Source of the DNA: an uncultured Desulfovibrionaceae bacterium
Lineage (GTDB): Bacteria; Desulfobacterota; Desulfovibrionia; Desulfovibrionales; Desulfovibrionaceae
NCBI GenBank assembly: GCA_949297645.1
Contig: CASFUJ010000004.1
Coordinates: forward strand, 1 to 35,407
Direction of reading: 5' to 3'
DNA length: 35,407 bases
The translations under genes were made by a program, and so were the position numbers. How positions within the stretch are numbered: the stretch's first letter is position 1; every line of letters starts with the position of its first letter. Shown one piece after another: positions 1-30,833 of this stretch. Under the pieces are notes generated by a model. It had not been told where the DNA came from. It made no database searches and saw only the letters and a list, made by a program, of their open reading frames with translations.

Positions 1-711
1 GATGTCCGTAAGTCCGCTCAGGTCCGAGAGCAGCTTGTCGTCAAAGGGCAGGAAGCGGAGATCCATGTCCTTGATGAGCTCGGAGATGGCGAAGTGCTCG
101 CCGGGGTTGGTCATGCTCATGACGTCGAGCTGACCTTCACGCATCATGCTGCCGCATTCGCTGGGAGTGCCGCCGTAGAGTGTAAAGCCACGCTTCTGCA
201 GGTCTTTTTTGGAGTATCCGAGGCAGGAAAAGGTCCAGCGCACGAACATTTCCGCGTTGCCGCCCACCTTGGAGCCGAGGAAGACTCGCAGCGGCTTCTT
301 GCTTTCCACAATATCGCGGACGCTCTTGATTTCGCTGTCCGTAGGAACGGCGAAGATGACGCGGGTCATGTCGTCGAGGTTGGCCAGAGCCTTGACGTTG
401 ACGGGTTTTCTGAAGGGTTCCACGCCGTCATGGGCGGCCTTCATAAAGGTAACGGCGGTAATGCCGATAAGGCTCTTGCCCTGTTCGACACGCATCACGT
501 TGGTGATGCCGCCGCCGGTGAACAGCGTGGTGTCGAATTCAGGATACATGCCGGAAAGCACCTTGGCGTAGGCCCCGAGGCCGACATACCATGCCCCTCC
601 GGGGGCCGAGGCTGCTATGTCCACGCTTTTTTTGTCCGCAGCCTGGGAAGAAAGCGGAGCGACGGCGATGGCAGCGGCACACAGCGTGAGGGCGAGAATC
701 CTTTTCAGCAT
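1..711 (-). CDS. TAXI family TRAP transporter solute-binding protein, partial (3' end beyond left edge)
   Basis: This is the periplasmic receptor that would deliver substrate to the fused TRAP permease of the same operon. The frame is open from the ATG at 709-711 to the left edge, 237 codons without a stop; TAXI receptors are usually about 320-350 residues, so roughly the last third is missing. Residues 1-25 form a signal peptide (MLKRILAL, hydrophobic core, SSQAA cleavage region). The mature part has TAXI-like features: SAPGGAWYVGLGAYAKVL near residues 35-52, a GGGITNVMRVEQG segment, and a VGGNAEM segment. AGGAG before the ATG is a good ribosome-binding site and overlaps the end of the amidohydrolase-fold gene, whose stop lies only 3 bases upstream, so the two are probably translationally coupled. 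The family call rests on overall resemblance and context. The ligand is unknown. Confidence 0.85.
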   Translation of the reverse strand, partial: MLKRILALTLCAAAIAVAPLSSQAADKKSVDIAASAPGGAWYVGLGAYAKVLSGMYPEFDTTLFTGGGITNVMRVEQGKSLIGITAVTFMKAAHDGVEPFRKPVNVKALANLDDMTRVIFAVPTDSEIKSVRDIVESKKPLRVFLGSKVGGNAEMFVRWTFSCLGYSKKDLQKRGFTLYGGTPSECGSMMREGQLDVMSMTNPGEHFAISELIKDMDLRFLPFDDKLLSDLSGLTDI

Positions 712-714
712 ATG

Positions 715-1557
715 TTACTCCTGAGGAAGCTGGATGTTGAACAGTTCAGCAGCATTCTTATAGAGCAGCTTGGGCAGCACTTCTTCCTTGAAGAGTGTCT
801 TGAATATGGAGAGGCTTTCGACAATGGGCATGAGCGGATAGGCGGAGCCGAACAGGAAACGATCCTGCAGCCAGGTGTTGGCGGCTGCTATGTAGTCCTG
901 AGCGCCGGAATTGTTCATGAGGTACATGTCGGGGCACAGCCAGATGTTGTCTTGCCAGAAGCATGCGCCGATGACGGCCTGGACCCAGGGCCATCCGCCG
1001 TGGGAGACCATGAATTTTCCTTTGGGGAAGTCGGCAGCGATGCTGCTGATGATGGCAGGATTACTGTAGGAGACGTCAGGGCCGGCACGTCCGCCGAGCA
1101 TGAGAATGACGGGAATTTTGTGGGCCTGACACATTTCATAGATGGGATAGAGTCTGCGGTCGTTGGCGTACAGCGGCATGGGGCAGGCTCCGGGTTCCAT
1201 GGAGACGGCCTTGAGGGGACCGTTGATGACGTGTTTTTCAATATCGGCCATGGCCGAGGGGATATTGGAGCAGTCCAGACCGGCGGCGCCCAGGATGCGG
1301 CCGCCGAAATGTTCCGTCATTTCCACCACGTCGTCGTTGGAAACATTGTAGCGGAAGTGGCCGTTGCGGCCCGTAGCCAAGGCATAAGTGATGCCGGCTT
1401 CGTCCATTTCCTTGAGCATGAGCTCTTCGGAAACCTGCTGGACGGATTCAGGGGAGGTCAGGCCGAACTTGGCGCTGAAGGCCTTGTTGCCGGCAGGAGA
1501 GGCATACTGCTGCTTGAAGCCTTTGAACGGGGGGCGGAGTCTTACGTCGATGACCAT
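715..1557 (-). CDS. Amidohydrolase-fold (amidohydrolase_2-like) protein lacking metal ligands, module 1
   Basis: A 280-residue protein resembling the amidohydrolase_2/ACMSD TIM-barrel family (PF04909). In that family HxH on strand 1, His on strands 5 and 6 and Asp on strand 8 hold a metal. Here strand 1 reads IDVRLRPP with Arg6 and Arg8 at the HxH positions. Strand 5 (IPVILMLGG, 148-156) has no His. The strand-6 His is kept (His186 in SHGGWPW). The usual GSDYP is GSAYP (237-241), with Ala239 replacing the Asp. A conserved MEPG motif lies at 120-123. Two paralogues in module 2 share these changes. AAGGAG precedes the ATG. The gene sits 67 bases after the TRAP permease and 3 bases before the TAXI receptor. 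It could be a metal-independent enzyme such as a lyase or decarboxylase, or a binding pseudoenzyme. Fold is fairly sure; function is unknown. Confidence 0.85.
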   Translation of the reverse strand: MVIDVRLRPPFKGFKQQYASPAGNKAFSAKFGLTSPESVQQVSEELMLKEMDEAGITYALATGRNGHFRYNVSNDDVVEMTEHFGGRILGAAGLDCSNIPSAMADIEKHVINGPLKAVSMEPGACPMPLYANDRRLYPIYEMCQAHKIPVILMLGGRAGPDVSYSNPAIISSIAADFPKGKFMVSHGGWPWVQAVIGACFWQDNIWLCPDMYLMNNSGAQDYIAAANTWLQDRFLFGSAYPLMPIVESLSIFKTLFKEEVLPKLLYKNAAELFNIQLPQE

Positions 1558-1624: not shown

Positions 1625-3544
1625 TCATCTGTCTTCGGGAAGCGTGCATTCTTCTCCGATGACGGGGATGGGGTCCTTTTTGTTGCGGCTGTACTGGCAG
1701 AGGATGACGAAACCCATGCTGGCGAGGCCGATGATGTCGGTGATGAAGCCGGGGTAGAACAGGCAGAGGCCGCCTATGAGGAGCAGCAGGCGTTCGACGA
1801 CGGTGCAGGATCTGAGCAGCCAGTTCTGAAGAGCTCCAGACAGACCGATGACGCCGATGATGGCCGTTATGGTGGCAGTGATCGAGGAGGCAAGGTCGCC
1901 CTGCCAGAGCAGCGACGGCTCGTAGACGAACATGATGGGCACTACAAAGGCCACCACACCGAGCTTCATGGAGGTGAAACCGGTCTTCATGGGGTCGGCT
2001 TCGGCTATATTGGCACCGGCGTAGGCGGCTACGCATACCGGAGGAGTGATGAAGGAGAGGATGGCGTAGTAGAAGCAGAACATGTGGGCGACGATGGGAG
2101 CAAGGCCCATCTTGATGAGCGCGGGGGCACCCAGGGTCGCCACCACGATGTAGGCGGGAGTGGTGGGCATGCCCATGCCGAGGATGAAGCTCGTGATCAT
2201 GAGCAGAATCAGCATGATGAACATGTGCCCGTCGGCCACGTTAGTGAGCACGTTGATGAACTTGAAACCTATGCCGGTGTAGTTGATGACGCCGACGACG
2301 ATGCCGGAGGCCGCACAGCAGGCCACGACCATGAGGGAGGAGGAAGCGGCGGCGTACAGTGTGTCGAGGAAGCGCTTGAAGGTGAATCGGGTGTCCTTGC
2401 GGATGAAGGAGAGCAGCAGTATGGAGCCTGTGGCCATATTGGCGCAGATGGCTGCGCTGCGGCCGTCGAGCATGATGATGACGAGTACGACCAGAGGGAT
2501 GAGGTAGTAAATGCGGGTAAGTATGCTTCTGAGAGAGGGAACAAGCTCGGAGCTGATCAGGCCGAGCCCCCGTCTGCGAGCTTCGAAGTGAATCATGACC
2601 CACAGAGCGAGGTAGTACAGAACGGCGGGCAGCAGAGCGGCTTTGGCCACTTCAAGGTAGGGCACGTTGCAGAATTCGGCCATCATGAAGGCGGCGGCGC
2701 CCATGACCGGGGGCATGATCTGGCCTCCCGTTGAGGCCACGGCTTCCACGGCGCCGGCGAAGTGGGGCTGGTAGCCGCAGTTTTTCATGAGCGGAATGGT
2801 GAACACGCCGGTGGTATAGACGTTGCCCGCGGAAGAGCCGGAAATGGTGCCGAAGAGCGCGCTGGCGAAAATGGCCACCTTGGCCGGACCGCCCTGAGAT
2901 TTGCGCGTGAGGCGGTAGGCCAGATCCATGAAGATACTGCTCATGTTGGAGCCTTCAAGAAAGGCTCCGAACATCATGAAGGCAAAGAGCGTGTTGCATG
3001 CCAGCATGACGGGGATGCCGTATACGCCTTCACCTGTGAGATACATGTTTTCAGCAATGTTCTCCAGCGTCGCGCCGTTGTGGCGGATGAAGGAGGGGAG
3101 CTGATCGCCCCACAGAAAATAGGCGAAGAAGACTATAGCCACGGTGAACAGCGGCAGGCCCGTCATACGTCTTGTGGCTTCCAGAGAAAGGCCGATGAGA
3201 ATATAGGCGAGCACCATGGCTTCCTGAGGCACTTCGTCGATGAAGGCCATGCGCTCCTGCAGTACTTCATAGTTGAAGTACAGATATACCGACGTGGCGA
3301 TGGCGCAGACGACCAGTACAAGGTCGATGAGCAGAAGAATGACCGGTTCCTTCCGCCCCTCTTGCAGTTTTATGGCAGGGTGAAGGAGAAAGATCATGGT
3401 GAGGGCGAAACTCAGGAATATGGCAGCCAGCAGAGAGCCTTCCAGCACGCCATAGCCTACGGTATAGTACAACTGGAAAAGCGTCATGGCTATACCGATG
3501 GGATAGGCGGCTTTTTTCATCGATTCCCGGGAAAGGATGGACAT
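1625..3544 (-). CDS. TRAP transporter fused permease subunit (TAXI type), module 1
   Basis: A 639-residue inner-membrane permease in which the small (DctQ-like) and large (DctM-like) TRAP subunits are fused, as in TAXI-TRAP systems. It should drive ion-coupled uptake of the ligand carried by the neighbouring TAXI receptor. Hydrophobic segments run throughout. The N-terminal part holds about four or five helices, and the DctM-like core contains the conserved stretches GSSAGNVYTTGVFTIPLMK and STGGQIMPPVMGAAAF and the late segment GMGMPTTPAYIV. The C-terminus ends in a PGFITDIIG-type segment like the DUF3394 tail of this family. GGAGGT precedes the ATG. The upstream reductase gene ends 22 bases before the start. 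The permease of module 2 is a clear paralogue. Substrate specificity cannot be read from the sequence. Confidence 0.95.
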   Translation of the reverse strand: MSILSRESMKKAAYPIGIAMTLFQLYYTVGYGVLEGSLLAAIFLSFALTMIFLLHPAIKLQEGRKEPVILLLIDLVLVVCAIATSVYLYFNYEVLQERMAFIDEVPQEAMVLAYILIGLSLEATRRMTGLPLFTVAIVFFAYFLWGDQLPSFIRHNGATLENIAENMYLTGEGVYGIPVMLACNTLFAFMMFGAFLEGSNMSSIFMDLAYRLTRKSQGGPAKVAIFASALFGTISGSSAGNVYTTGVFTIPLMKNCGYQPHFAGAVEAVASTGGQIMPPVMGAAAFMMAEFCNVPYLEVAKAALLPAVLYYLALWVMIHFEARRRGLGLISSELVPSLRSILTRIYYLIPLVVLVIIMLDGRSAAICANMATGSILLLSFIRKDTRFTFKRFLDTLYAAASSSLMVVACCAASGIVVGVINYTGIGFKFINVLTNVADGHMFIMLILLMITSFILGMGMPTTPAYIVVATLGAPALIKMGLAPIVAHMFCFYYAILSFITPPVCVAAYAGANIAEADPMKTGFTSMKLGVVAFVVPIMFVYEPSLLWQGDLASSITATITAIIGVIGLSGALQNWLLRSCTVVERLLLLIGGLCLFYPGFITDIIGLASMGFVILCQYSRNKKDPIPVIGEECTLPEDR

Positions 3545-3566: not shown

Positions 3567-5486
3567 TTACAGGGACCAGGCTGCCAGGAAGCCCTGACGG
3601 ACGGCGGTAATGACCTTACCTGGACGTATGCAGTCGCCGGCGGACTGAACGGGAATACCGGCTTCGACCAGTTGCTGCTGGAGGAGATTGCGGGACCGGT
3701 AGCCGAAGGCCATGACGATAGAATCGAACTCGTCCAGAGAGCGTTCCGTGCGAAGAGCGCTGCGTACCTTTACATGAAGGCCGGAAACTTCCAGTACTTC
3801 CGTGTTGAGCAGTGCTTTGACGCCGAGTTCCTTCAGGCGGGCCATCATGAATATACGGGTACGGGTTTCCATGTCCGGGGCGAGCGTGTCACGAAGTTCG
3901 AGAATGGTGACTTCCCGGCCTTGTTCGGCCAGCATTTCCGCCGTTTCACATCCGACGAGTCCGCCGCCGAGAATGAGGACCTTGTGTCCCGTCTCCCGTC
4001 CCATAAGAACGTCCTGGGCCGTGACGGCTCCGGTATTTTTGCAGAAGCAGGGCACGACGGGCTCACTGCCGGTGGCCACGATGGTCATGTCGGGGTTCAG
4101 GGAGCGTATGAGTTCAACGTCCGCTTCCACGCCGAGGCGCACGTCCATGCCGGACTGTTTCACGGCGTGTTCCATGTAAAGGCGCAGAGTTTCGAACGCA
4201 GTCTTGTGGGGAGGCCTGCATGCCACATGCAGAAGTCCGCCCAAGGTATTCGTGCGTTCGATGAGGGTGACATGATGTCCTTTTTCTTTGGCTGTAAGCG
4301 CGGCTTCCAGTCCGGCGGGTCCGGCCCCGACAACAACGATGTGCTTCGGTTCGGCTACGCGTACATACGGGAATCGCGCTTCCTGGCCGGCCCTGGGATT
4401 CACAGCGCAGGTCACGTTGCCGAAAGGTGCGCTCACGCATCCTTCGTTGCAGGAGAGGCAGGGCGCAATGGAAGAGAATTTTCCGGCCTGACTCTTGGCG
4501 GGCAGGTAGGGATCGGCGATGAGGGGACGTCCCATGACAATCATGTCGGCCTTGCCTGCGGCCAGAATGGATTCGGCCAGCGCCGTATTATGTATGCGCC
4601 CCACAATGGCAACAGGTACACGAGCATTCACGGCTTTACGCACAGCCGCGGCGCGTTCGGCGTTGAAACCTTCGGGAAGCACGGCCGGAGGAATAGTGTA
4701 GCGGTTGGTTTCGCAGGCGCCTACGCTGATGTTCAGGGCGTCTATTCCGTTATCCACAAAGGCCTTGGCGATAGGAAGGGATTTTTCCAGAGTGAGGCCC
4801 GTGCCGTTGAACTCATCCACGCTGAGACGCACGGTGATGGGATAGTCCGGTCCTACGGCCTCCCGGCAGGCACGGAGCACCGCGAGCGGGAAGCGCAGGC
4901 GATTTTCTTCGCTTCCGCCGTATTCGTCCTGGCGGAAGTTGGTGAAGGGAGAGAGAAACTGGTTGAGCAGGTAGCCGTGGGCCCCGTGGAGTTCGACCAG
5001 GTCGAAGCCGGCCTTTTTGGCGCGGGCGGCCGCAGCGGCATAGATTTCTACGAGTTCGGCAATGTCCGCACGGGTAAGTACCCTGGCTCCTTCATAGGGA
5101 GTGACTCCGGGGATATAGGAGACGAGCTTGATGGGGCCGCCGTTGGTCAGCGGATTGGCGGTACGCCCGCCGTGCTGAAGCTGCAGACCGACCTTGCCGC
5201 CGCAGGCATGGATGGCCTGCGTGAGTCTGGTGAGACCGGGGAGCATGGCGTCCGTGTCCGCGCCGAGACCAAACTTGTAACTGTCTCCCTGTCGTTCCAC
5301 ATAGGTGGCCTCAATCATGATGAGACCGACGCCGCCACGGGCTCTCTCCGCGTAGTAGTGGATCATCTGATCCGTCACCTCACCGTTGCTGGCGGCGTAC
5401 TGTGTGACCATGGAGGACATGATGAGGCGGTTTTTCAATGTAAGCGTATTGATGGTGATGGGGGAAAAGAGAATGCTGTTTTCCAT
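3567..5486 (-). CDS. NADH:flavin oxidoreductase / FAD-dependent Old Yellow Enzyme family reductase (2,4-dienoyl-CoA reductase type)
   Basis: First gene of the module-1 operon, 639 residues from the preferred start. Residues 1-340 form the FMN TIM barrel (SPITINTLTLKNRLIMSSM at the start; HGAHGYLLNQFLSP at 167-180 is the active-site strand). Cys343, Cys346, Cys350 and Cys360 form the C-x2-C-x3-C-x9-C cluster typical of 4Fe-4S members. Two nucleotide-binding motifs follow: VVVGAGPAGLEAA near 384-396 (FAD) and LILGGGLVGCETAE near 504-517 (NAD(P)H). This is the layout of 2,4-dienoyl-CoA reductase, trimethylamine dehydrogenase and bile-acid BaiCD/BaiH-type enzymes, which reduce activated C=C bonds or act on amines. 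An in-frame ATG 31 codons upstream (5579) is rejected: it lies on the sigma-54 promoter and lacks the domain, whereas ATG 5486 has a GAGGG site and starts the domain. The real substrate is unknown. Confidence 0.93.
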   Translation of the reverse strand: MENSILFSPITINTLTLKNRLIMSSMVTQYAASNGEVTDQMIHYYAERARGGVGLIMIEATYVERQGDSYKFGLGADTDAMLPGLTRLTQAIHACGGKVGLQLQHGGRTANPLTNGGPIKLVSYIPGVTPYEGARVLTRADIAELVEIYAAAAARAKKAGFDLVELHGAHGYLLNQFLSPFTNFRQDEYGGSEENRLRFPLAVLRACREAVGPDYPITVRLSVDEFNGTGLTLEKSLPIAKAFVDNGIDALNISVGACETNRYTIPPAVLPEGFNAERAAAVRKAVNARVPVAIVGRIHNTALAESILAAGKADMIVMGRPLIADPYLPAKSQAGKFSSIAPCLSCNEGCVSAPFGNVTCAVNPRAGQEARFPYVRVAEPKHIVVVGAGPAGLEAALTAKEKGHHVTLIERTNTLGGLLHVACRPPHKTAFETLRLYMEHAVKQSGMDVRLGVEADVELIRSLNPDMTIVATGSEPVVPCFCKNTGAVTAQDVLMGRETGHKVLILGGGLVGCETAEMLAEQGREVTILELRDTLAPDMETRTRIFMMARLKELGVKALLNTEVLEVSGLHVKVRSALRTERSLDEFDSIVMAFGYRSRNLLQQQLVEAGIPVQSAGDCIRPGKVITAVRQGFLAAWSL

Positions 5487-5561: not shown

Positions 5562-5579
5562 ATGCAAGATCCGTGCCAA
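5562..5579 (-). promoter_or_regulatory. Sigma-54 (RpoN) -24/-12 promoter of the module-1 operon
   Basis: On the minus strand the sequence reads TTGGCACG, four bases, then TTGCAT. This matches the consensus TGGCACG-N4-TTGC(A/T) at every conserved position, with the GG and GC elements correctly spaced. It lies about 75 bases before the ATG at 5486 and points at the reductase gene. Transcription should start about 12 bases downstream of the -12 element, near 5553. A sigma-54 activator is encoded divergently just upstream, giving the standard arrangement of an activator and its target operon. Confidence 0.9.
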
Positions 5580-5861: not shown

Positions 5862-7940
5862 ATGTCGGGCAGCGCGACCATGCTTGAAAAACGGAAACGG
5901 ATATTTGAGGAGTGGAAAAAGTTCCAGAATGGAGAAGAGGTGGACCACACGGTAGTCCGGGATTTCGTATATCGTTCCTGGGTGCGCTGCCGGAATCTTC
6001 ATGTAGACCCTTTCCGAGTGATCTATCGGGAGCTAACGCCGGAACAACTGGATGCGGAGACTGAGCGATATGCTTTTTTGCTGGATAGCTCGAAGACCAT
6101 CATGGAGCAGATCTATTCGCTTATTTCCGATTCCCACAGTACCATTTCCCTGGCTACTAGCAAGGGAGTAATTCTGCATACATTGCCGGAGAACGGCATT
6201 GTCAGCAGACGTGGCAGAGTTTCCAGAGAAAAGTACATAGGAACGGTCGGACTGGCCACATGTCTTGAAGAAAAAAAGCAGTTGGAAATTTTTGCTGCAG
6301 AACACTACTGCACAGAAAATCATGATTTCGTATGTTCAGCGGCGCCTATTTTGGATAAGAGCGGTCAGATCATCGGTGTTCTCGGGATCACGTCGCCCTG
6401 CGAGACATTTCATCCCCATACGAGCGGCATGCTTGGGGCCGCCGTATACGCCATTATGGAGCAGCTCGGTCTGCGTGATCTTCTGGGAGAACAGAAGGCC
6501 CTTCTGGAACTCATGGATGAGGGGGTCATCACTCTGGATGCGGGCGGTTCCATCCGCTTCATCAACGCCAAGGCTATGAGCATGCTGCGCCTCCGTACGG
6601 AACCTGTGGGAAAGAACATTGCCGGGGTCATACGCTTCAGTCAGGCGGTAAGGCCCCTTTTTGATGCGAGAAGCGCTTTTCATGACGTGGACACCACGCT
6701 TATGGCGGAGGAGGCGGCGCAGTCCATTTCCTGTGTGCTTTCCGCAGCCGTAAATCATTCCACAGGCGGAATGATTCTCACGCTGCGCGAGTCTGACCGC
6801 ATGCGGGAATTTGCTACGCGTCTTGTCGGAGCCAAGGCGACCTTTTCCTTCAGTGACATTATCGGTGAATCCGAACCTATGAAGGAAGTGCTGCAGAAGG
6901 CTCGAAAAATAGCAGAGTCGGATACCACGGTTCTGTTGCTGGGAGAAAGCGGCACGGGTAAGGAACTTTTTGCCCAGTCGCTGCACAACGCCAGTCCAAG
7001 GCAGGGAAAGCCTTTCGTCGTGGTCAATTGCGGGGCGTTGCCGAGAGAGCTCATACAAAGCGAGCTATTCGGCTATACGGAGGGAGCATTTACGGGGGCC
7101 AGCAGACAGGGCAAGCCGGGCAAGTTTGAGCTTGCCGACGGCGGAACTATTTTTTTGGACGAGATAGGGGAAATGCCGCTGGATGTGCAGGTAAATCTGC
7201 TCCGGCTGCTCCAGAATCGCGAGGTCGTGCGTATCGGCGGGCAGCGTACCAGACTCGTCAATATCCGTATCATTGCCGCAACAAATAAGAATCTGTACCG
7301 AGCTGTTCAAGAACAGACTTTCCGGGAAGACCTGTATTACCGGCTCAATGTTTTTCCTCTGCATATCCCGCCTCTGCGGGAGAGACAGGGCGACGTGGCT
7401 CTGCTCGCTTGGCATTTCATGCAGAAGTTTGCCCGACAGGCAGGCAATTCTTTGAAGGGAATTTCGGAAGATGCGTTGAAGGCGCTTTCAGCCTATGCCT
7501 GGCCCGGAAATATACGCGAGCTGGAAAACGTCATGGAGCGTGCGACCTACATGGCCATCGGAGAGGAGGTGACGACGGCGGATCTTCCAGAATCCATTTC
7601 TGGTGCATCGGCGCATGGGGTTGAGGAAGGTCCGGCAGAGGTCGGTGCCAGGAGCAGCGAAGGACAGGAAAAGGCCGCCATCGAGGCGGCACTCCGTACC
7701 GCACGGGGACATGTAGCCGACACGCTGAAGCTCCTGGGCATGAGCCGCAGCACGTTTTATTACAAGCTCAAACGATACGGCATACGTTCTTCGGACTTTC
7801 GTCGCGGCGGGCCGGAGGACGGCAGCGGGGGACAGGACATCAGCAGGGTGCTGGAACCTCTGCTCACATTGAGGAAGGAAGAGTTGGAGGCTTTGGCCGA
7901 TTTGGCAAGACAGATCTGCAGAAGTAGGGAAGGAGCGTAA
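5862..7940 (+). CDS. Sigma-54-dependent transcriptional activator (GAF-PAS-AAA+-Fis)
   Basis: A 692-residue AcoR/DhaR-like enhancer-binding protein. Residues 1-200 begin with an acidic, basic-flanked helix and RSWVRCRNLHVDP (38-50), then a GAF-like sensor. A PAS-like segment lies near 205-310 (LLELMDEGVITLDAGG). The AAA+ domain has Walker A GESGTGKE (361-368), the sigma-54 contact loop GAFTGA (408-413), Walker B FLDE (431-434) and the arginine region YYRLNVFPL. A Fis-type helix-turn-helix lies near 606-640 (LGMSRSTFYYKLKRYG). A further 50 residues extend past the usual end. GGAG precedes the ATG at 5862; the next Met (codon 7) has no site. It is divergent from module 1 and very likely activates the sigma-54 promoter at 5562-5579. 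The ligand sensed by the GAF domain is unknown and may be the transported substrate. Confidence 0.95.
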   Translation: MSGSATMLEKRKRIFEEWKKFQNGEEVDHTVVRDFVYRSWVRCRNLHVDPFRVIYRELTPEQLDAETERYAFLLDSSKTIMEQIYSLISDSHSTISLATSKGVILHTLPENGIVSRRGRVSREKYIGTVGLATCLEEKKQLEIFAAEHYCTENHDFVCSAAPILDKSGQIIGVLGITSPCETFHPHTSGMLGAAVYAIMEQLGLRDLLGEQKALLELMDEGVITLDAGGSIRFINAKAMSMLRLRTEPVGKNIAGVIRFSQAVRPLFDARSAFHDVDTTLMAEEAAQSISCVLSAAVNHSTGGMILTLRESDRMREFATRLVGAKATFSFSDIIGESEPMKEVLQKARKIAESDTTVLLLGESGTGKELFAQSLHNASPRQGKPFVVVNCGALPRELIQSELFGYTEGAFTGASRQGKPGKFELADGGTIFLDEIGEMPLDVQVNLLRLLQNREVVRIGGQRTRLVNIRIIAATNKNLYRAVQEQTFREDLYYRLNVFPLHIPPLRERQGDVALLAWHFMQKFARQAGNSLKGISEDALKALSAYAWPGNIRELENVMERATYMAIGEEVTTADLPESISGASAHGVEEGPAEVGARSSEGQEKAAIEAALRTARGHVADTLKLLGMSRSTFYYKLKRYGIRSSDFRRGGPEDGSGGQDISRVLEPLLTLRKEELEALADLARQICRSREGA

Positions 7941-23471: not shown

Positions 23472-23693
23472 CTACGAAACGGCGGGCAGGCGTTTCAGGC
23501 GGAACACGACGGGAGTGAGACCGTCCGTGGAGCAGACATACACGATCCCTTCTCGGAAGCCTGGAACGTTTCCGCCCAGCTGGAGGGAAAGAACGTAGCG
23601 ATTGAGGTCATGCCAGGCGGAAACGGGAAGTCCTTCCGGCTTTTTTCCCTCCTTCTCAACGAAGAAGGTGTCTCCTTCCATCAGTCCGGGGGG
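23472..23693 (-). pseudogene. Out-of-frame 3' part of the second TIGR04076-like domain
   Basis: This segment continues the second TIGR04076-like domain in a different frame from its beginning. In the shifted frame it reads LMEGDTFFVEK, then SAWHDLNRYVLSLQLGGN and VYVCSTDGLTPVVFRLKRL, parallel to WAWNDLYP and CCTDGAMPMIFKIE of the first domain. The frame change falls at six C residues on the minus strand (23688-23693). Removing one C joins both halves into a 236-residue tandem-domain protein ending at 23472. It may be a true frameshift, a phase-variable tract or a sequencing error. No good independent start serves this piece. Confidence 0.65.
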
Positions 23694-24183
23694 ACTCGGG
23701 CGTCTGTATGATGTCCTCGGAAAGGGTGGGGTGTACCTCATCTGCCGAGAAGACTCTTGTCACGGTTATTTTCAGAGGCATGCGAGTGTTGCCTTCTTTG
23801 CGGGGACATGTTTTTTCTCCGGCAATGTCGTGCTCGCCGTGGGCTTCCTGTTGATATTCTATTTTGAAAATCATGGGCATGGCGCCGTCCGTGCAGCATG
23901 AATACTGAATGCCCGGACGCTTTTTCATGGCGAAGTGCCCGCCCGTCTGCATGGCGGTCATGATGGGATACAGGTCGTTCCAAGCCCAGTCGCAGGGAAA
24001 GGGCGGCGTACAGATGCCTTCTGCGTCTATCATGAACGTCTGTCCCGGCTTCAATCGCGCGCACTGCGGCGGAGCGTGGGAAACCTGATCTTCGAGGGGC
24101 ATGGGGAAAAGGTCTTTCGTGCCGACGGTGCGCAGTACCGTTACTTTCAGAGGGTGTCGCCTGGAAGGCTGCGTGGCTGGCAT
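23656..24183 (-). CDS. TIGR04076-like family protein, tandem domain, frameshifted in domain 2
   Basis: A 175-residue frame from the ATG at 24181-24183, which has AAGGAG eight bases upstream. Residues 10-110 form one complete domain resembling the small uncharacterised TIGR04076 family: LKVTVLRT start, GQTFMID, CDWAWNDLYP (64-73), GGHF, then YSCCTDGAMPMIFKIE (94-109). A linker to about 134 leads to a second copy beginning MPLKITVTRVF (135 on). The frame changes at 23688-23693 and ends in about ten unrelated residues. An internal start at 23781 (Met135, AGAAGG upstream) could instead make domain 2 a separate small protein. It lies 121 bases after the TRAP permease and is probably the last part of module 2. 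The molecular function of the family is not known to me; conserved Cys and Trp hint at metal or cofactor binding. Confidence 0.7.
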   Translation of the reverse strand: MPATQPSRRHPLKVTVLRTVGTKDLFPMPLEDQVSHAPPQCARLKPGQTFMIDAEGICTPPFPCDWAWNDLYPIMTAMQTGGHFAMKKRPGIQYSCCTDGAMPMIFKIEYQQEAHGEHDIAGEKTCPRKEGNTRMPLKITVTRVFSADEVHPTLSEDIIQTPESPRTDGRRHLLR

Positions 24184-24304
24184 GGGGGAAGCTCCTTTGT
24201 AGAGCCGGTTCCGCCCGGCGAGGGACTGGGCCGGGCGGAACATTGGAGGCATCGGTGCGGAAGCTGATGCCGGGTCGGGAAAGGAGTCCTTTCCCGACGG
24301 GGGG

Positions 24305-26170
24305 TCAGTTTTTCTGAAGTTTCTGCATGAGCAGAACGAGGGCAAAGCCTCCGAGACCCAGCACATCGGTAATCATGCCCGGGATGATGAGCATGAGACC
24401 CGCCGCAACAAGCACGGCACGCTGCCAGAGCGGAGCGTTGTGCAGAAGATAGCCCTGCAGGCCGGCGGCCAGAGCGATGAGTCCCAGCGAGGCCGAGATG
24501 ATGGCGGGAATGATGTCTGCGGCGCTGCCCTTGAGCAGAAGAGCGGGTTCATACACAAAGAAGAACGGCACAATGAAGGCTATGACGCCGAGCTTTACGG
24601 ACTGGAAACCTGTCTGCATGGCGTTGGCTTCGGCTATGGCTGCTCCCGCAAAGGCGGCAAGGCATACCGGCGGTGTGATGGCGGAAAGGACGGCATGATA
24701 GAGCACAAACATGTTGGCGGCGAGAGGATCGACGCCGAGCTTTATCATGGCAGGTGCCGCCAGCACGGAAACGATGATGTAGGCGGGAGCCGTGGGAACG
24801 CCCATCCCTACGATGAAGCAGGTCAGCATGAGCAGAATGAGCAGAAGAATCAGGTTGCCGTCCACAAAGGAGGTGATGAGATTGATGAATTTGAAACCAC
24901 CGCCGGTGATACCCATGACGCCCACCACGATACCGGCGCAGGCGCAGCAGGCGGTCACCATGAGGGTATTTCTGGCGGCGGAGACGGAGATGTCTCTGAG
25001 GGCCTTAAGGTCGATGCGTGTGCTTTTGCGGAAAAGCCCTACGAGTGCCACGACGATGCAGCCTGCAAAGGCGGCGAAGTTGACGCTTCTGCCCATCATG
25101 AGCACCACGACGAGAAAGACCAGAGGAATCATATAATAGAGGCGGGAGATGACGGCCCGTGCCTCAGGTACTTCTTCCGCCGGTATGGTTCCGAGGTTTT
25201 TCTTTACGGCTTCAAAGTGAATCATGAGCCAGAGAGAGGCGTAGAACAGCAGGGAGGGAAGAAGCGCGGCCTTGACCACGGCCATGTAGCCCACACCTGT
25301 GAGGTCAGCCATAATGAAGGCCGCCGCGCCCATGATGGGCGGCATGAGCTGCCCGCCGGTGGAGGCGCAGGCTTCCACGGCGCCAGAAAACGCGGGAGAG
25401 TAGCCCACACGTTTCATGAGCGGAATGGTGAAGATGCCGGTTCCGTAAACGTTGGCCGGGGCGGAGCCGGAAATGGAACCGAACAGAGCCGAGGCGAAAA
25501 TGGCCACTTTGGCCGGGCCGCCTTTGGCGTTTTTGGTGAGCAGACAGGCGAGGTCGATGAACAGGGTGTTCATGCCCGTGCGTTCAAGGAAGGCGCCGAA
25601 GAGCACGAAGGCGTAAATCATGGTGGCGGCAGCCGCCAGCGGAAGACCGAAGAGTCCGTCAGAGGAAAGAAAGAGCTGTTCGATGAGACCTTCGAAGGTG
25701 ACGCCGTTGTGACGGAAGGGGCCGGGCAGGTCCTGACCGAAGAGCGCATAACAGATGAAGCAGACGCCCACGATGACGAGAGGCATACCGGCGGTGCGTC
25801 TGGTGATTTCCATGGTGAGAAGCGTGGTGACGCAGCCGAAGAAGAGGTCCAGATTTGTGACCTCATCCACATAGCGCACGCGTTCGAGAATGGTTGAGGC
25901 GTTGGCAAAGTAGTAGGCGCTTATGCTGAGGGCAAGCAGCGCAAGGCAGATATCAATCAGAACGCAGACAGTGGGCTCCCTGCCGGTGCCGAATTTTTTA
26001 TGCGGAACATGAAGAAAGGCAAGGGCCAGTACCAGGGAAAGATGCGCCACCTTCTGAAGTGTGCCGTCGAAAATGGCAAATCCACCTGTGGTGTAGATTT
26101 GAAACAGGGCGAGAAAAACGGCAAGAACCGTGAACACGGGTTTAAGAGAGGCTCGCAGCTTGTTTTCCAT
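24305..26170 (-). CDS. TRAP transporter fused permease subunit (TAXI type), module 2
   Basis: A 621-residue paralogue of the module-1 permease, with DctQ-like N-terminal helices fused to a DctM-like core. Conserved core stretches include GSAPANVYGTGIFTIPLMK, STGGQLMPPIMGAAAF and the late segment GMGVPTAPAYIIV. It ends with a PGMITDVLG segment like its paralogue. It sits in the inner membrane and should take substrate from the module-2 TAXI receptor. AAGGAA precedes the ATG, and the second amidohydrolase-fold gene ends 26 bases upstream. In this module the permease comes last of the transport genes, whereas in module 1 it precedes the receptor. Confidence 0.95.
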   Translation of the reverse strand: MENKLRASLKPVFTVLAVFLALFQIYTTGGFAIFDGTLQKVAHLSLVLALAFLHVPHKKFGTGREPTVCVLIDICLALLALSISAYYFANASTILERVRYVDEVTNLDLFFGCVTTLLTMEITRRTAGMPLVIVGVCFICYALFGQDLPGPFRHNGVTFEGLIEQLFLSSDGLFGLPLAAAATMIYAFVLFGAFLERTGMNTLFIDLACLLTKNAKGGPAKVAIFASALFGSISGSAPANVYGTGIFTIPLMKRVGYSPAFSGAVEACASTGGQLMPPIMGAAAFIMADLTGVGYMAVVKAALLPSLLFYASLWLMIHFEAVKKNLGTIPAEEVPEARAVISRLYYMIPLVFLVVVLMMGRSVNFAAFAGCIVVALVGLFRKSTRIDLKALRDISVSAARNTLMVTACCACAGIVVGVMGITGGGFKFINLITSFVDGNLILLLILLMLTCFIVGMGVPTAPAYIIVSVLAAPAMIKLGVDPLAANMFVLYHAVLSAITPPVCLAAFAGAAIAEANAMQTGFQSVKLGVIAFIVPFFFVYEPALLLKGSAADIIPAIISASLGLIALAAGLQGYLLHNAPLWQRAVLVAAGLMLIIPGMITDVLGLGGFALVLLMQKLQKN

Positions 26171-26196: not shown

Positions 26197-27066
26197 CTAA
26201 AGTTTCAGAAGCCGGGCGGCGTTTTCGTAAAGGGAAAGCTCGAGACTTTCTGCGTTCCAGTTTCTGTTTGTCCAGTCCGTCACGCTCTGTTTCAGACCTC
26301 GTACGGGATAGCTGCTGGCAAAAAGTACCTGATACTTAAGGAACGTGTTGGCTGCTTTCAGCATTTCCCCGGCCATAGGCATGTCTTCCACATAAAAATA
26401 GCAGTCGGGCGCAAGATAGAGGTTTGGAGTGAACATTGCGGCGCCGATGATGTCGGCAAAAAAAGGCCAGCAGGCATGCATGATGACGAAGTTTACATCG
26501 GGATGTTTACGGCATGCCCTCTGTACGGCATCGGGTCTGGCGTAGCTGATATCCGGGCCGATATGAGGACTGAGCGTCAGGGAGACAATGCCTTCGTACC
26601 GGGCGCACAGGTCGTAGAGTTCGTCCAGACGCGGGTCGTCGGCAAGAAGCGGCGGCGTGCACCAGCCGGGTTCAAGGCTGAGTCCTTTGAATTCCGGACG
26701 GCGCAGGCACCGTTCCGCTTCTTCGACGGCCCCTTGTTCCATGGGGTCTATACCGGCAAGACAGAGGAACCTGCCGGGATAAAGAGTGGAGAGTTCCGTA
26801 AGTTCACTGTTGGACTGGTTGCTGAATCCGTCTCCGGGAAGAAGACAACGTCGTCCCATGACCACGGCTGTGCTTATTTCTGCCTCGCCCATTTCTTCCA
26901 TGAAAAGCGACATGCTGCCTCCATGTTGCAGGGAGGGAACGGGAAGCCTGCCACGGTTTGTGGCCGGTTGACGGCGGGGTTCCACAGGCACGTTCATCCA
27001 GCGCTTCATGATGCCGCTCTCAAGAAAGCTTTTGAACGGCGGGCGTACTCGGAAGTCAATGATCAT
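26197..27066 (-). CDS. Amidohydrolase-fold protein lacking metal ligands, module 2 copy B
   Basis: A 289-residue paralogue of the module-1 protein. Strand 1 reads IDFRVRPPF with Arg6 and Arg8 at the HxH positions. The strand-5 region (EGIVSLTLSPHIGPD, 158-172) has a His only later, in a loop. His197 in IMHACWPFF keeps the strand-6 position. The GSDYP motif is ASSYP (250-254), Ser252 for Asp. LEPGWCTPPL (131-140) matches the conserved EPG motif. It is the most divergent of the three and carries a proline/arginine-rich insert near 25-45. The ATG overlaps the GAGG-containing end of the TAXI gene, 13 bases after that stop. Lost metal ligands make a standard hydrolase reaction unlikely. It may form a hetero-oligomer with copy A; that is an inference. 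Confidence 0.83.
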   Translation of the reverse strand: MIIDFRVRPPFKSFLESGIMKRWMNVPVEPRRQPATNRGRLPVPSLQHGGSMSLFMEEMGEAEISTAVVMGRRCLLPGDGFSNQSNSELTELSTLYPGRFLCLAGIDPMEQGAVEEAERCLRRPEFKGLSLEPGWCTPPLLADDPRLDELYDLCARYEGIVSLTLSPHIGPDISYARPDAVQRACRKHPDVNFVIMHACWPFFADIIGAAMFTPNLYLAPDCYFYVEDMPMAGEMLKAANTFLKYQVLFASSYPVRGLKQSVTDWTNRNWNAESLELSLYENAARLLKL

Positions 27067-27079
27067 GGAACGCAGGGCC

Positions 27080-28078
27080 TCACTTCAGAAGACCGGCTTC
27101 ACGGAAATAGCGGATGGCTCCGGGATGTCGGGGAAGGGTGGTTTCCCCGGCGGCCACGGCGGGCGTGAAGCATGCCCAGCCGGGATTGGCGTCGCCTATT
27201 TCCTTGCCGTGTTCCACCCAGACCTTGGTCATTTTGTAAACGAGGTCCTCAGGCGTATCCTTGCGGCAGAAGATTTCATTGGTGTCGGTCAGACACGGAA
27301 TGTCGGAGCCGACCATACCGTTGAATTCCGTCCCCTTGACCACCGTGGGACGCAGTCCTTTTTCCTTCATTTTTTCCATGACTTCCTGCTTGACGGGAAG
27401 CCAGCGGAGCTTCTGGCCGAGGGCCACTTCCTGCATGAATACGGGTTCGCCCGGTCCGACCCACACAAGCATGTCGATTTGATTATCCTTCATGCTGTTG
27501 GTCACGGTGTCGTAGGCGCTGAAATTGACGGTGCCGCCCCATTTTCTGATGTCGTCATAGGTAATACCATAGGCTTCCAGCACCCAGCGTCCGTACAGCT
27601 CATTTGTCGTTCCCTTGGGAGACATGGCAAGGGAGATGGCCATCTTTTTGTCCCTGATGTCATCGAGCGTTTTGAAGGGAACAGCGTCGCGCGCTATGAA
27701 ATGCAGACGCGTTTCGTCCCCGATACGGAACATGGACAGGAGGTCGCCATGTTTTTCCTTATAAGGGTCGGTGCCGTTGTATGCAGCGTTCAGTGCCATG
27801 GTCTGGGTATGGGAAAGTTCTCCGGCACCTCTCTGCATCCGGGTCGGGTTTGCTACGGCGCCGCCGGGAAGAATGTCCACGTTGGAGCCGGGATATTCTT
27901 TCATGAATGCCTGAGCGAAGGCCGCGTAGGAACGGTTGACGGAGCCGCCGAGAGAAGCCCCGACAATGCGTACGTTAAGATTTTCTTCTGCTCCGGCCGG
28001 AGAGGAGAAGGAGGAGGGGAAAAGTCCGGCAGTCAGAATGAGTCCCGTGAGAGCGAGTGTGGTCGTCAGCTTTTTCAT
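27080..28078 (-). CDS. TAXI family TRAP transporter solute-binding protein, module 2
   Basis: A complete 332-residue periplasmic receptor from the preferred start. The signal peptide is MKKLTTTLALTGLILTAG to about residue 30 (FSSPAGAEE cleavage region). The mature part follows the TAXI pattern: LNVRIVGASLGGSVNRSYAAF, GGAVANPTRMQRGAGELSHTQT, a central DDIRDKKMAISLAMSPKG segment, and a GPGEPVF motif. The start with AAGGAG eight bases upstream is preferred; the frame is open 18 codons further (28132), but that would overlap the amidohydrolase-fold gene before it and bury the signal peptide. Flanked on both sides by amidohydrolase-fold genes. Ligand unknown. Confidence 0.93.
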   Translation of the reverse strand: MKKLTTTLALTGLILTAGLFPSSFSSPAGAEENLNVRIVGASLGGSVNRSYAAFAQAFMKEYPGSNVDILPGGAVANPTRMQRGAGELSHTQTMALNAAYNGTDPYKEKHGDLLSMFRIGDETRLHFIARDAVPFKTLDDIRDKKMAISLAMSPKGTTNELYGRWVLEAYGITYDDIRKWGGTVNFSAYDTVTNSMKDNQIDMLVWVGPGEPVFMQEVALGQKLRWLPVKQEVMEKMKEKGLRPTVVKGTEFNGMVGSDIPCLTDTNEIFCRKDTPEDLVYKMTKVWVEHGKEIGDANPGWACFTPAVAAGETTLPRHPGAIRYFREAGLLK

Positions 28079-28121
28079 TACTGTTCTCCTTGGATGGCTT
28101 AAGCTTTGAAACGGAGAAGGG

Positions 28122-28961
28122 CTATGCTTCAAGCCCGAAGAGTCGGGCTCCGTTCAGGTACATGATTTTATCCGCCACTTCGGGACGGAGGCGGCGAACA
28201 TAGTCTTCCACGGCCTTTTCCAGCGGTATGGCCGGATAGGAGGAGCCGAAGACTATCTGGTCTTGCAATGTGTAGTTTGCCGCGAGAATGTAGTCCGCGC
28301 CGCCCGGGGCGAAGCTCATGGCCCAGGTGTCCGGCGAGAGAAAAACGTTCGGACAGTCCATGGCGACCTTGCAGATGGCCGTCACATAGGGCCATCCTCC
28401 GTGGCAGAGAACGAGCTTGAGGGCGTGGAAGCGGGTGGCAACGTCGTATATGAGTTCCGGTGCGTAATAGCGTGGATCGGAGACACGTCCTCCGAAGGAA
28501 AGCAGTATCGGCACGTTTTTTTCTGCACAGTACTCATATACGGGGAATATGTCGGAATTGTTGACGAACCACTTCACCGGAGTGGTGTAGAGGCCGGGTT
28601 CCATGATGACCGCACGGCACGGACCGTTTACGCAGTACCGTTCAACATCCGCGCACGCCGTTCGTGGATTGAGGGGGTCAATCCACGGTATGCCGAGAAA
28701 GTGGCCGGGAAATTCTTCCATGAGGGCAAGGGCGTCGTCGTTGTCGGCTCTCTGCGGCAGGCGGACGGGCGCGACGCCCCAGGTAATGCCGGCTCTGTTC
28801 ATTTCCTCGACAAGCAGGGCCGTGTCCTTGCGCACTGCCGCTTCGGAAACGGGACCGAGAGCACGCATGGCATGGGATTTTTCCAAAGCCGGCATGTCGT
28901 ACATGAAGGAATTAAGATAGCTCCTGTAGGGAGGACGAAGGCGAAAGTCTATGGCGCGCAT
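28122..28961 (-). CDS. Amidohydrolase-fold protein lacking metal ligands, module 2 copy A
   Basis: A 279-residue paralogue closest in pattern to the module-1 protein. It starts AIDFRLRPPY, with Arg at both HxH positions. Strand 5 (VPILLSFGGR, 150-159) has no His. His187 in LCHGGWPY is kept. The strand-8 motif is GSSYP (239-243), with Ser241 replacing the Asp. MEPG lies at 120-123. AGGA precedes the ATG, and the gene starts 9 bases after the flavoprotein stop. The next gene is the TAXI receptor. The shared EPG, GGR and HGGWP motifs in three copies show the family is under selection, so loss of the metal site is probably functional rather than decay. Reaction unknown. Confidence 0.85.
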   Translation of the reverse strand: MRAIDFRLRPPYRSYLNSFMYDMPALEKSHAMRALGPVSEAAVRKDTALLVEEMNRAGITWGVAPVRLPQRADNDDALALMEEFPGHFLGIPWIDPLNPRTACADVERYCVNGPCRAVIMEPGLYTTPVKWFVNNSDIFPVYEYCAEKNVPILLSFGGRVSDPRYYAPELIYDVATRFHALKLVLCHGGWPYVTAICKVAMDCPNVFLSPDTWAMSFAPGGADYILAANYTLQDQIVFGSSYPAIPLEKAVEDYVRRLRPEVADKIMYLNGARLFGLEA

Positions 28962-28970
28962 GGCGTTTTC

Positions 28971-29600
28971 CTATCGGCAGAAGTTGGCCCGGACGCGTTT
29001 TTCATAGACCGGCGCGGGAATGGTATCTTTGGATGCTTCTATGACTTTCAGCAGCCATGTCATGTTCCTTCCGAGCACCTTCATGGTCTGCACGCCTTCC
29101 GTATCCTGTTCCAGAAATTCTTCGGGTTTCCAGCCGAATACGATATTCCAGTACTGGCTGTTGACGGTGAGAAGATTGGAGCAGTTGAGGTAGTTGCCTA
29201 ACTGCTGAGCCGTGTTGACTGCGCCTGCCCTGCGGCAGACGGCTATGGCTGCTGCGGGTTTGGGTCCCCAGCCTTCAAGATGCTCTGTAGCATAGAGGAG
29301 TCTGTCGAGCGCCGCTTTGAACGGTCCGGGAATACCCATGTAGTGTACCGGGCACCCCAGTATCAAACCGTCGTAGTCGGGAAGCATATCAATAATTTTG
29401 TTGACAATGTCGTTGTGGATGCAATGATGACCATTTGTTCTGCATTTTCTGCAGTCAAGGCATCCTGCCAACGGTTTTACACCGATATGAATGATATCAA
29501 GACCAATATTTTCTTTTTTAAGCTCTTCTTCAACAAGTTGAATGGCGTGATATGTCACGCCTCTTGGATTCTGACTTCCATTAAGAGCAAGAACTTTCAT
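28971..29600 (-). CDS. Flavodoxin-family / iron-sulfur flavoprotein-like NAD(P)H-dependent oxidoreductase
   Basis: A 209-residue cytoplasmic flavoprotein, first gene of the module-2 operon. MKVLALNGSQNPRGVT forms the FMN-phosphate loop of the NADPH-dependent FMN reductase family. Residues 47-60 (GCLDCRKCRTNGHHC) hold Cys47, Cys50, Cys53 and Cys60, spaced CX2CX2CX6C like the compact 4Fe-4S motif of iron-sulfur flavoproteins. GLILGCPVHYMGIPGPFKAALDRL is the conserved second flavin-binding block. The rest (NIVFGWKPEEFLEQD, MTWLLKVIEAS) is typical of the same group. GGAGG lies before the ATG. By position it is the counterpart of the Old Yellow Enzyme of module 1: a redox enzyme that could supply electrons or reduce the imported compound. 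Confidence 0.88.
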   Translation of the reverse strand: MKVLALNGSQNPRGVTYHAIQLVEEELKKENIGLDIIHIGVKPLAGCLDCRKCRTNGHHCIHNDIVNKIIDMLPDYDGLILGCPVHYMGIPGPFKAALDRLLYATEHLEGWGPKPAAAIAVCRRAGAVNTAQQLGNYLNCSNLLTVNSQYWNIVFGWKPEEFLEQDTEGVQTMKVLGRNMTWLLKVIEASKDTIPAPVYEKRVRANFCR

Positions 29601-29921: not shown

Positions 29922-30833
29922 TCAGGCGATGGGACGCGGGACGCCTGTCAGGTCGCAGAGCAGGTCGATGATTTTGCTGCACTGCGGCGTCAGGTAGCTG
30001 TCTTTTCCCCAGATGATGGCCGGACGAAAGATGAGCTTGGGAAGATTGACCCGGCGCACGGCGAGGGAGAAGGCTTTGCGGGGAAGCTCCGTATGGTGCA
30101 GGATGGCGACGGCCGGAAGTTCTTCCAGAGTGTCTATCATCCAGTAGGGGGCAGGCGTGTCCAGAATGATGCGTGGCCGGAGATTTTCTTCCTGCATGGC
30201 AATGATGAAGGGGCGGAAGGTCCCGCTGTTGGACCAGCGCCGTGAGAGCATGAGGGGAAAGGTGGCAAGCGTACGCAAAGACACGGGGTCTTCGTCGGGA
30301 GCGATGAGCAGCGGTGACCATACGGCCACGAAATACTGTTCAGGCAGAGGAACGGACACATAGTTGTTATACATGAGGGGCAGATGGAGGATGGCGAGGT
30401 CCAGCCCGTGGCTCTGCACCTTGTTTTCCAGCGCCATGTTGTCCGTGACCAGAAGGCGTATGCGTATGCCCGGATACTCCTGCTCCATGCGCGGCAGTAT
30501 GGCACGAAGGAACGACAGGCAGAAACCGCTGCATCCCACGCGTACTTCGCCGAAGATGTCGGCGTTGCGTGCAAAGGGATTTCTGATGTTCTGTGCCAGA
30601 TCGTCCACCTGCGTCAGAATCCGCTGGGCTTCCAGATAGAAGGCCTGCCCTCGCTCTGTGACCTGCCATTTGCCGCTCTCTCTGTGAATGAGTATGAGGC
30701 CGAGTTCGTCCTCAAGGTCCTTGAGCGACTGACTCAGAGTGGGCTGGCTGATGTGCAGAATCCTGGCGGCGCGGCTGATCTGGCCTTGCTCCACGATGGT
30801 GCAGAAATACAGAAGGCGGCGGAAGTCCAGCAT
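29922..30833 (-). CDS. LysR family transcriptional regulator
   Basis: A 303-residue LysR-type regulator. The N-terminal winged helix-turn-helix is clear (residues 1-60: MLDFRRLLYFCTIVEQG, then SRAARILHISQPTLSQSLKDLE). A linker helix and a C-terminal periplasmic-binding-protein-like effector domain follow (VRVGCSGFCLSFLRAILPRM, then LRIRLLVTDNM-type strands). It lies just upstream of, and on the same strand as, module 2, with a 321-base gap, and probably controls that operon. No strong ribosome-binding site precedes the ATG, which suggests low translation; the start is fixed by homology. Effector unknown. Confidence 0.93.
   Translation of the reverse strand: MLDFRRLLYFCTIVEQGQISRAARILHISQPTLSQSLKDLEDELGLILIHRESGKWQVTERGQAFYLEAQRILTQVDDLAQNIRNPFARNADIFGEVRVGCSGFCLSFLRAILPRMEQEYPGIRIRLLVTDNMALENKVQSHGLDLAILHLPLMYNNYVSVPLPEQYFVAVWSPLLIAPDEDPVSLRTLATFPLMLSRRWSNSGTFRPFIIAMQEENLRPRIILDTPAPYWMIDTLEELPAVAILHHTELPRKAFSLAVRRVNLPKLIFRPAIIWGKDSYLTPQCSKIIDLLCDLTGVPRPIA

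Follow-up and report, generated by a model that had tools for sequence, protein, structure and literature searches.

A subfamily of amidohydrolase-fold (PF04909) proteins with R-x-R in place of the metal-binding H-x-H motif: candidate metal-free enzymes acting on small organic anions

A large subfamily of PF04909 proteins, represented here by a 280-residue protein from Mailhella (Desulfovibrionaceae), appears from its sequences to have lost the canonical metal site of the amidohydrolase barrel in a coordinated way, a conclusion that is well supported, and the Mailhella protein is itself probably a metal-free enzyme. The reading put forward, with slightly better than even confidence, is that the whole metal centre has been swapped for an anion-binding acid/base site, with which these proteins would act on small carboxylate or sulfonate anions. 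The genes are annotated merely as amidohydrolases, and the residues that they encode rule out the textbook metal mechanism; the subfamily spans at least three phyla (160 proteins), makes up the majority of the PF04909 proteins in some gut bacteria, and lies in operons that appear to serve the uptake of organic acids or the cleavage of isethionate, by which hydrogen sulfide can arise in the intestine.

The Protein and Its Altered Metal Site

The stretch of DNA analysed, hereafter the window, is 35,407 nucleotides long, and the gene, at 715 to 1557, has an ATG start and encodes the N-terminus MVIDVRLRPP; the nearest named relatives of the protein come from Mailhella MAGs (87% identity). Membership of PF04909 (Amidohydro_2) is clear from the Pfam profile search (100.9 bits, curated cut-off 26.4), and no curated NCBIfam model matched the protein. 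Long antisense open reading frames in the window, such as 94 to 1662 on the plus strand, were read as shadow ORFs.

Four of the five canonical metal ligands are lost, and His186 on strand 6 is the only one kept. A sequence-only reading had described the R-x-R in place of H-x-H, the missing strand-5 His, the Ala in place of Asp and the surviving His186, as well as the recurrence of the substitutions in two paralogues of the window; the alignment bears out both points, the two paralogues having Ser where the Asp would be and retaining E-P-G. A third gained arginine, Arg64, had been overlooked. Residues were counted across about 220 aligned PF04909 proteins, including 160 R-x-R members and 27 H-x-H controls, and the counts below are given in that order.

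715 to 1557, minus strand: R-x-R amidohydrolase-fold protein, 280 aa (ORF call, PF04909 profile, alignment and predicted model)
1534 to 1542, minus strand: codons of Arg6 to Arg8, the R-x-R replacing the strand-1 H-x-H; R6 and R8 invariant in a 79-member alignment and in all 13 copies of the same genome
1366 to 1368, minus strand: codon of Arg64, a residue acquired by the subfamily, where strand 2 ends (Arg in 155/160 and 5/27)
1195 to 1197, minus strand: codon of Glu121 at the end of strand 4, in the E-P-G motif (Glu/Asp in 159/160 and 0/27)
1099 to 1101, minus strand: codon of Met153, the usual site of the strand-5 metal His (His in 0/160 and 23/27)
1000 to 1002, minus strand: codon of His186 on strand 6, the sole canonical metal ligand kept (158/160 R-x-R proteins)
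841 to 843, minus strand: codon of Ala239, the usual site of the strand-8 metal Asp (Asp in 0/160 and 26/27)

The R-x-R set was selected by R6 and R8, so the invariance of these two residues proves nothing and the independent evidence lies in the remaining columns, where Tyr212 is also widespread (151/160). The motifs proposed earlier hold in part: Glu/Asp121 is near-universal and Gly123 occurs in only 107/160 proteins, so that EPG is better written E/D-P-(G), while in HGGWP only His186 and Pro190 are near-invariant. The window protein falls in the R-x-R subfamily (BB4693 type) by its R-x-R, Arg64, Glu/Asp121 and His186, by the lack of the strand-5 His and strand-8 Asp, and by its clade. The sequence-only reading had staked its claim on the absence of another intact His/Asp/Glu metal site, and inspection of the R-x-R sequences made no such conserved cluster evident.

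In a tree built with the trait columns left out, the 56 representatives of the main R-x-R clade form one branch (SH-aLRT 99) and, together with the alignment counts, this strongly supports the distinct subfamily, with its canonical metal site fully lost, that had been proposed. Seven more R-x-R rows fall outside the main clade, six of them in a clade with sequences like I-D-F-R-F-R-P, and one origin for all R-x-R proteins is not proven. Partial loss of the metal site is found in related groups (loci L109-L118, L207, L218 and L087-L094): the C-x-T proteins (L109-L112) keep His153 and have Ala at 239, the R-x-I proteins (L113, L117, L118) retain both His153 and Asp239, and the V-x-N proteins (L087, L088, L093, L094) retain the strand-8 Asp. 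These partly degraded groups suggest a stepwise erosion of the metal site.

Predicted Structure and Solved Relatives

The AlphaFold2 model of the protein, obtained from the 79-member alignment, has a mean pLDDT of 97.3 and a pTM of 0.94 and is an amidohydrolase barrel, whose best solved match is 3irs (Bordetella BB4693; Z 41.9, rmsd 1.5, 274 residues), followed by 3cjp (Z 24.8) and by the metal decarboxylases 2dvu, 3s4t, 4ifk and 4l6d (Z about 21-22; 2dvu 22.5). The amidohydrolase_2 fold, on which the earlier claim also depended, was in this way upheld. By the DSSP assignment of the model, R6 and R8 follow strand 1, E121 follows strand 4, H186 strand 6, and D210 and Y212 strand 7, with R64 where strand 2 ends; all seven residues should therefore face the active-site mouth of the barrel.

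BB4693 of Bordetella bronchiseptica (3irs, 3k4w) shares with the window protein the R-x-R, Arg64, Glu121, His186 and the strand-8 Ala at 39-40% identity; it is uncharacterised and, unlike the desulfovibrionaceal protein, has a beta-proteobacterial host. The subfamily is thus already in the databases through these solved structures, and a literature search returned no open paper naming BB4693, nor one naming 3IRS together with amidohydrolase. A metal could sit at a non-canonical place in 3irs. The metal-dependent PF04909 decarboxylases, namely gamma-resorcylate/2,6-dihydroxybenzoate decarboxylase (2dvu, 3s4t), ACMSD (4ifk) and LigW (4l6d), act on small acids and have the same barrel and strand-6 His, but hold their metal by H-x-H, His and Asp, of which the window protein keeps the strand-6 His only. 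LigI, the 2-pyrone-4,6-dicarboxylate lactonase, is a metal-independent amidohydrolase barrel with an acidic substrate that retains H-x-H and the strand-8 Asp; the window protein, which has neither, is set apart from it. A preprint on a Bilophila metallo-BSH was discarded as irrelevant, being concerned with PF07969, another, metal-dependent family.

Gene Context in the Window

The gene lies in a minus-strand operon, next to a sigma-54 activator on the plus strand, that encodes in order a flavoenzyme, a fused TRAP permease, the R-x-R protein and a TAXI-like receptor, the last separated from the amidohydrolase stop by 3 bases.

1 to 711, minus strand: probable TAXI-type periplasmic receptor of the TRAP transporter, truncated where the contig ends (24% identity with the receptor at 27080 to 28132, which Pfam confirms as TAXI)
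1625 to 3544, minus strand: fused TRAP permease (TIGR02123, 647.5 bits, cut-off 320.65)
3567 to 5486, minus strand: FadH/BaiCD-like flavoenzyme of the old yellow enzyme (OYE) family (best model NF041087, below its cut-off)
5563 to 5578, minus strand: sigma-54 promoter preceding the operon, matching the -24/-12 consensus with 0 mismatches (0.03 such sites expected in the window)
5862 to 7940, plus strand: divergent NtrC-like sigma-54 activator (sequence reading: GAFTGA-containing AAA+ region, C-terminal HTH)

The nearest solved structures to the flavoenzyme are NCR (6qkg) and 2,4-dienoyl-CoA reductase (1ps9), and the perfect -24/-12 site (5578 to 5563) lies about 77 bases upstream of its likely start. 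Similar cassettes with R-x-R genes occur at other Mailhella loci, many of them preceded by perfect -24/-12 sites, and homologues of the sigma-54 activator recur beside R-x-R genes. Perfect sigma-54 sites precede many flavoenzyme-TRAP-amidohydrolase operons and also isethionate operons, which suggests a common mode of regulation. The operon of the window copy contains no sulfonate gene, and no IslA-type glycyl radical enzyme adjoins it.

The two paralogues lie together further along the window:

23656 to 24366, minus strand: TIGR04076 family protein adjoining the cluster (58 bits, cut-off 33)
24305 to 26170, minus strand: fused TRAP permease (TIGR02123, 628.3 bits)
26197 to 27066, minus strand: R-x-R paralogue in the TRAP-TAXI cluster (PF04909, 74.3 bits)
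27080 to 28132, minus strand: TAXI receptor (NMT1_3, 128.4 bits)
28122 to 28961, minus strand: R-x-R paralogue (PF04909, 82.6 bits)
28971 to 29600, minus strand: FMN reductase adjoining the paralogue (PF03358, 98.4 bits)
29922 to 30833, minus strand: LysR regulator (PF00126 and PF03466)

Occurrence and Copy Number

The genome that contains the window (a 2.49 Mb draft) has 15 PF04909 matches, 13 of which carry the R-x-R in the form I-D-x-R-x-R-P. Its Mailhella genus mates have up to about 26 R-x-R copies per genome, a Peptococcaceae gut MAG has 21 profile matches, and 14 copies are found in a genome of the same order as a beta-proteobacterial locus (L038). R-x-R copies are also present in Roseomonas and, borne on plasmids, in Cupriavidus, Methylobacterium, Azospirillum, Hydrogenophaga, Desulfolutivibrio, Aliarcobacter and Caballeronia. 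Among 297 phylum-wide genomes, 50 have matches at 1e-40, the weaker matches being H-x-H or intermediate relatives.

Most Mailhella and Peptococcaceae genomes tested contain dsrA. However, a tie between R-x-R copy number and dsrA, taken as the marker of sulfite respiration, was rejected owing to multi-copy genomes without the gene: G006 (18 R-x-R matches, rated 100% complete) showed none, unlike the other Mailhella tested, and it is absent also from G496 (14 copies) and G411 (9 copies), with only a trace in G348 (8 copies).

Gene Neighbourhoods and the Sulfonate Link

In a one-contig relative (G018) a TRAP permease lies within 6 kb of 12/16 R-x-R genes, a count reached in 0/5000 circular shifts, and an OYE-family gene is near 7/16 (reached in 24/5000). 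In Burkholderiales-order genomes and in Roseomonas TctC receptors are found near R-x-R genes, and elsewhere the neighbours are ssuD with sulfonate ABC genes, or a dicarboxylate symporter.

A paralogue on another contig of the same genome (C8), unlike the window copy, belongs to an IslA-type locus, where DctP, DctM, a glycyl radical enzyme, its activase and the R-x-R gene are consecutive. The glycyl radical enzyme scores 1522 bits against the isethionate sulfite-lyase 7kq3 and, since it also passes the cut-off of the NCBIfam model of a related enzyme, the Desulfovibrio-type sulfopropanediol enzyme, it is labelled IslA/HpsG-type. In one R-x-R clade such an enzyme or its activase stands beside 18 of 22 loci, from two phyla; the enzyme itself is present in 16 and the activase only in two more, near a contig or stretch edge. 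The 22 loci vary in gene order, and two of them come from the Peptococcaceae group. This pairing of an I-D-F-R-F-R-P-type R-x-R clade with isethionate-type glycyl radical enzymes extends over several genera, and the Peptococcaceae group shares it (L048, 9037-16602; L238-L257); two more R-x-R genes of G018 adjoin related glycyl radical enzymes. A separate clade adjoins ssuD in Azospirillum, Aliarcobacter and Methylocystis.

In Methylobacterium nodulans the order is a succinate-dehydrogenase-like set, fumarase, the R-x-R gene, a molybdopterin oxidoreductase/cytochrome c pair and a sulfite exporter, and the dehydrogenase-fumarase set recurs in Cupriavidus P-10; in both genera these loci are plasmid-borne, and the R-x-R gene comes directly after the set (L230, 4592-8834; L231, 2892-8834). 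Overall, a sulfonate marker is found within 6 kb of 24/127 R-x-R genes with neighbourhoods, a biased fraction as the IslA-linked loci were fetched on purpose, and the sulfonate link is one theme among these genes and not a rule.

In Bilophila wadsworthia the published IslAB cluster includes a TIGR04076 protein and an amidohydrolase with no role assigned, HMPREF0179_00649 (PMC8667426). As in the IslA-linked R-x-R clade, the amidohydrolase gene is inside an isethionate cluster, and it possibly belongs to that clade; the TIGR04076 family is common to the Bilophila cluster and the paralogue cluster of the window (23656 to 24366).

Proposed Function and Alternative Explanations

In the proposed mechanism R-x-R proteins would bind no catalytic metal, the arginines that replace the metal histidines abolishing cation binding and creating an anion site. 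Arg6, Arg8 and Arg64 would cluster at the mouth of the barrel and grip a small imported substrate by its carboxylate or sulfonate, His186 and Glu/Asp121 would serve as general acid/base, and the reaction would be that of a lyase, hydro-lyase or isomerase, without need for metal-activated water. The window operon, expressed from its sigma-54 promoter, would bring in the substrate by the TAXI receptor and the fused TRAP permease, for cytoplasmic processing by the window enzyme and the FadH-like flavoenzyme; paralogues would carry out related chemistry on other anions, one clade taking part in isethionate-type sulfonate breakdown. The earlier suggestion that the two arginines serve a carboxylate substrate is consistent with the invariant pair, with Arg64 and with the organic-anion transporters linked to the genes, but in part of the family gene context gives sulfonates at least equal support. 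That all copies share one chemistry is an assumption, given their widely differing contexts.

It is rather unlikely that the R-x-R proteins have no catalytic role and serve to sense or bind imported organic anions, feeding, for instance, the adjoining sigma-54 or LysR regulators. The loss of the canonical ligands and the regulators and transporters that often adjoin the genes agree with such a role, and a binding or regulatory role would equally conserve the pocket residues; nevertheless, up to 26 copies in a genome, within apparently catabolic operons and in several cases last in order after the catabolic enzyme, as well as conserved residues capable of acid/base chemistry, speak against it. 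Slightly less probable is that the subfamily still uses a metal, held in a rebuilt site by His186 together with Glu/Asp121, Asp210 or other residues in a new geometry: His186 and Glu/Asp121 are indeed almost invariant and position 210 is Asp in most members, but it is Ser in 36/160, a second conserved His is absent, and three arginines in the same mouth would disfavour a cation.

A shade more doubtful again is an alpha-hydroxysulfonate lyase that splits carbonyl-bisulfite adducts, such as the acetaldehyde adduct possible after isethionate cleavage, into sulfite and the carbonyl. This activity would tie together the contexts seen with IslA, with SsuD and in M. nodulans, since the neighbouring IslA-type enzymes, SsuD and SfnG yield a carbonyl and sulfite and M. 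nodulans has the succinate-dehydrogenase-like set and fumarase along with the oxidoreductase pair and the sulfite exporter, and a sulfonate would suit the arginine cluster. However, most copies, the window copy among them, have no sulfonate gene nearby, the adducts fall apart without an enzyme too, the relative with 18 copies showed no dsrA, and the flavoenzyme and TctC contexts are not obviously covered. Ordinary pseudo-enzyme decay after gene duplication, to which the lost ligands and the lineage-specific expansion might point, is highly improbable and was rejected because the new residues are fixed across at least three phyla, in intact reading frames placed in operons.

The metal-free acid/base reading is favoured over decay: very many copies strongly conserve one and the same set of polar residues, which argues for catalysis. 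A broader version is unlikely: that the subfamily is a new metal-free catalytic class for organosulfonates or bisulfite adducts as well as carboxylates, providing a missing step in pathways by which gut sulfidogens release sulfite, and expanded separately in Mailhella and the gut Peptococcaceae. Tandem pairs of divergent R-x-R genes are common (L027, L030, L031, L034, L053, L065), and their products may form hetero-oligomers.
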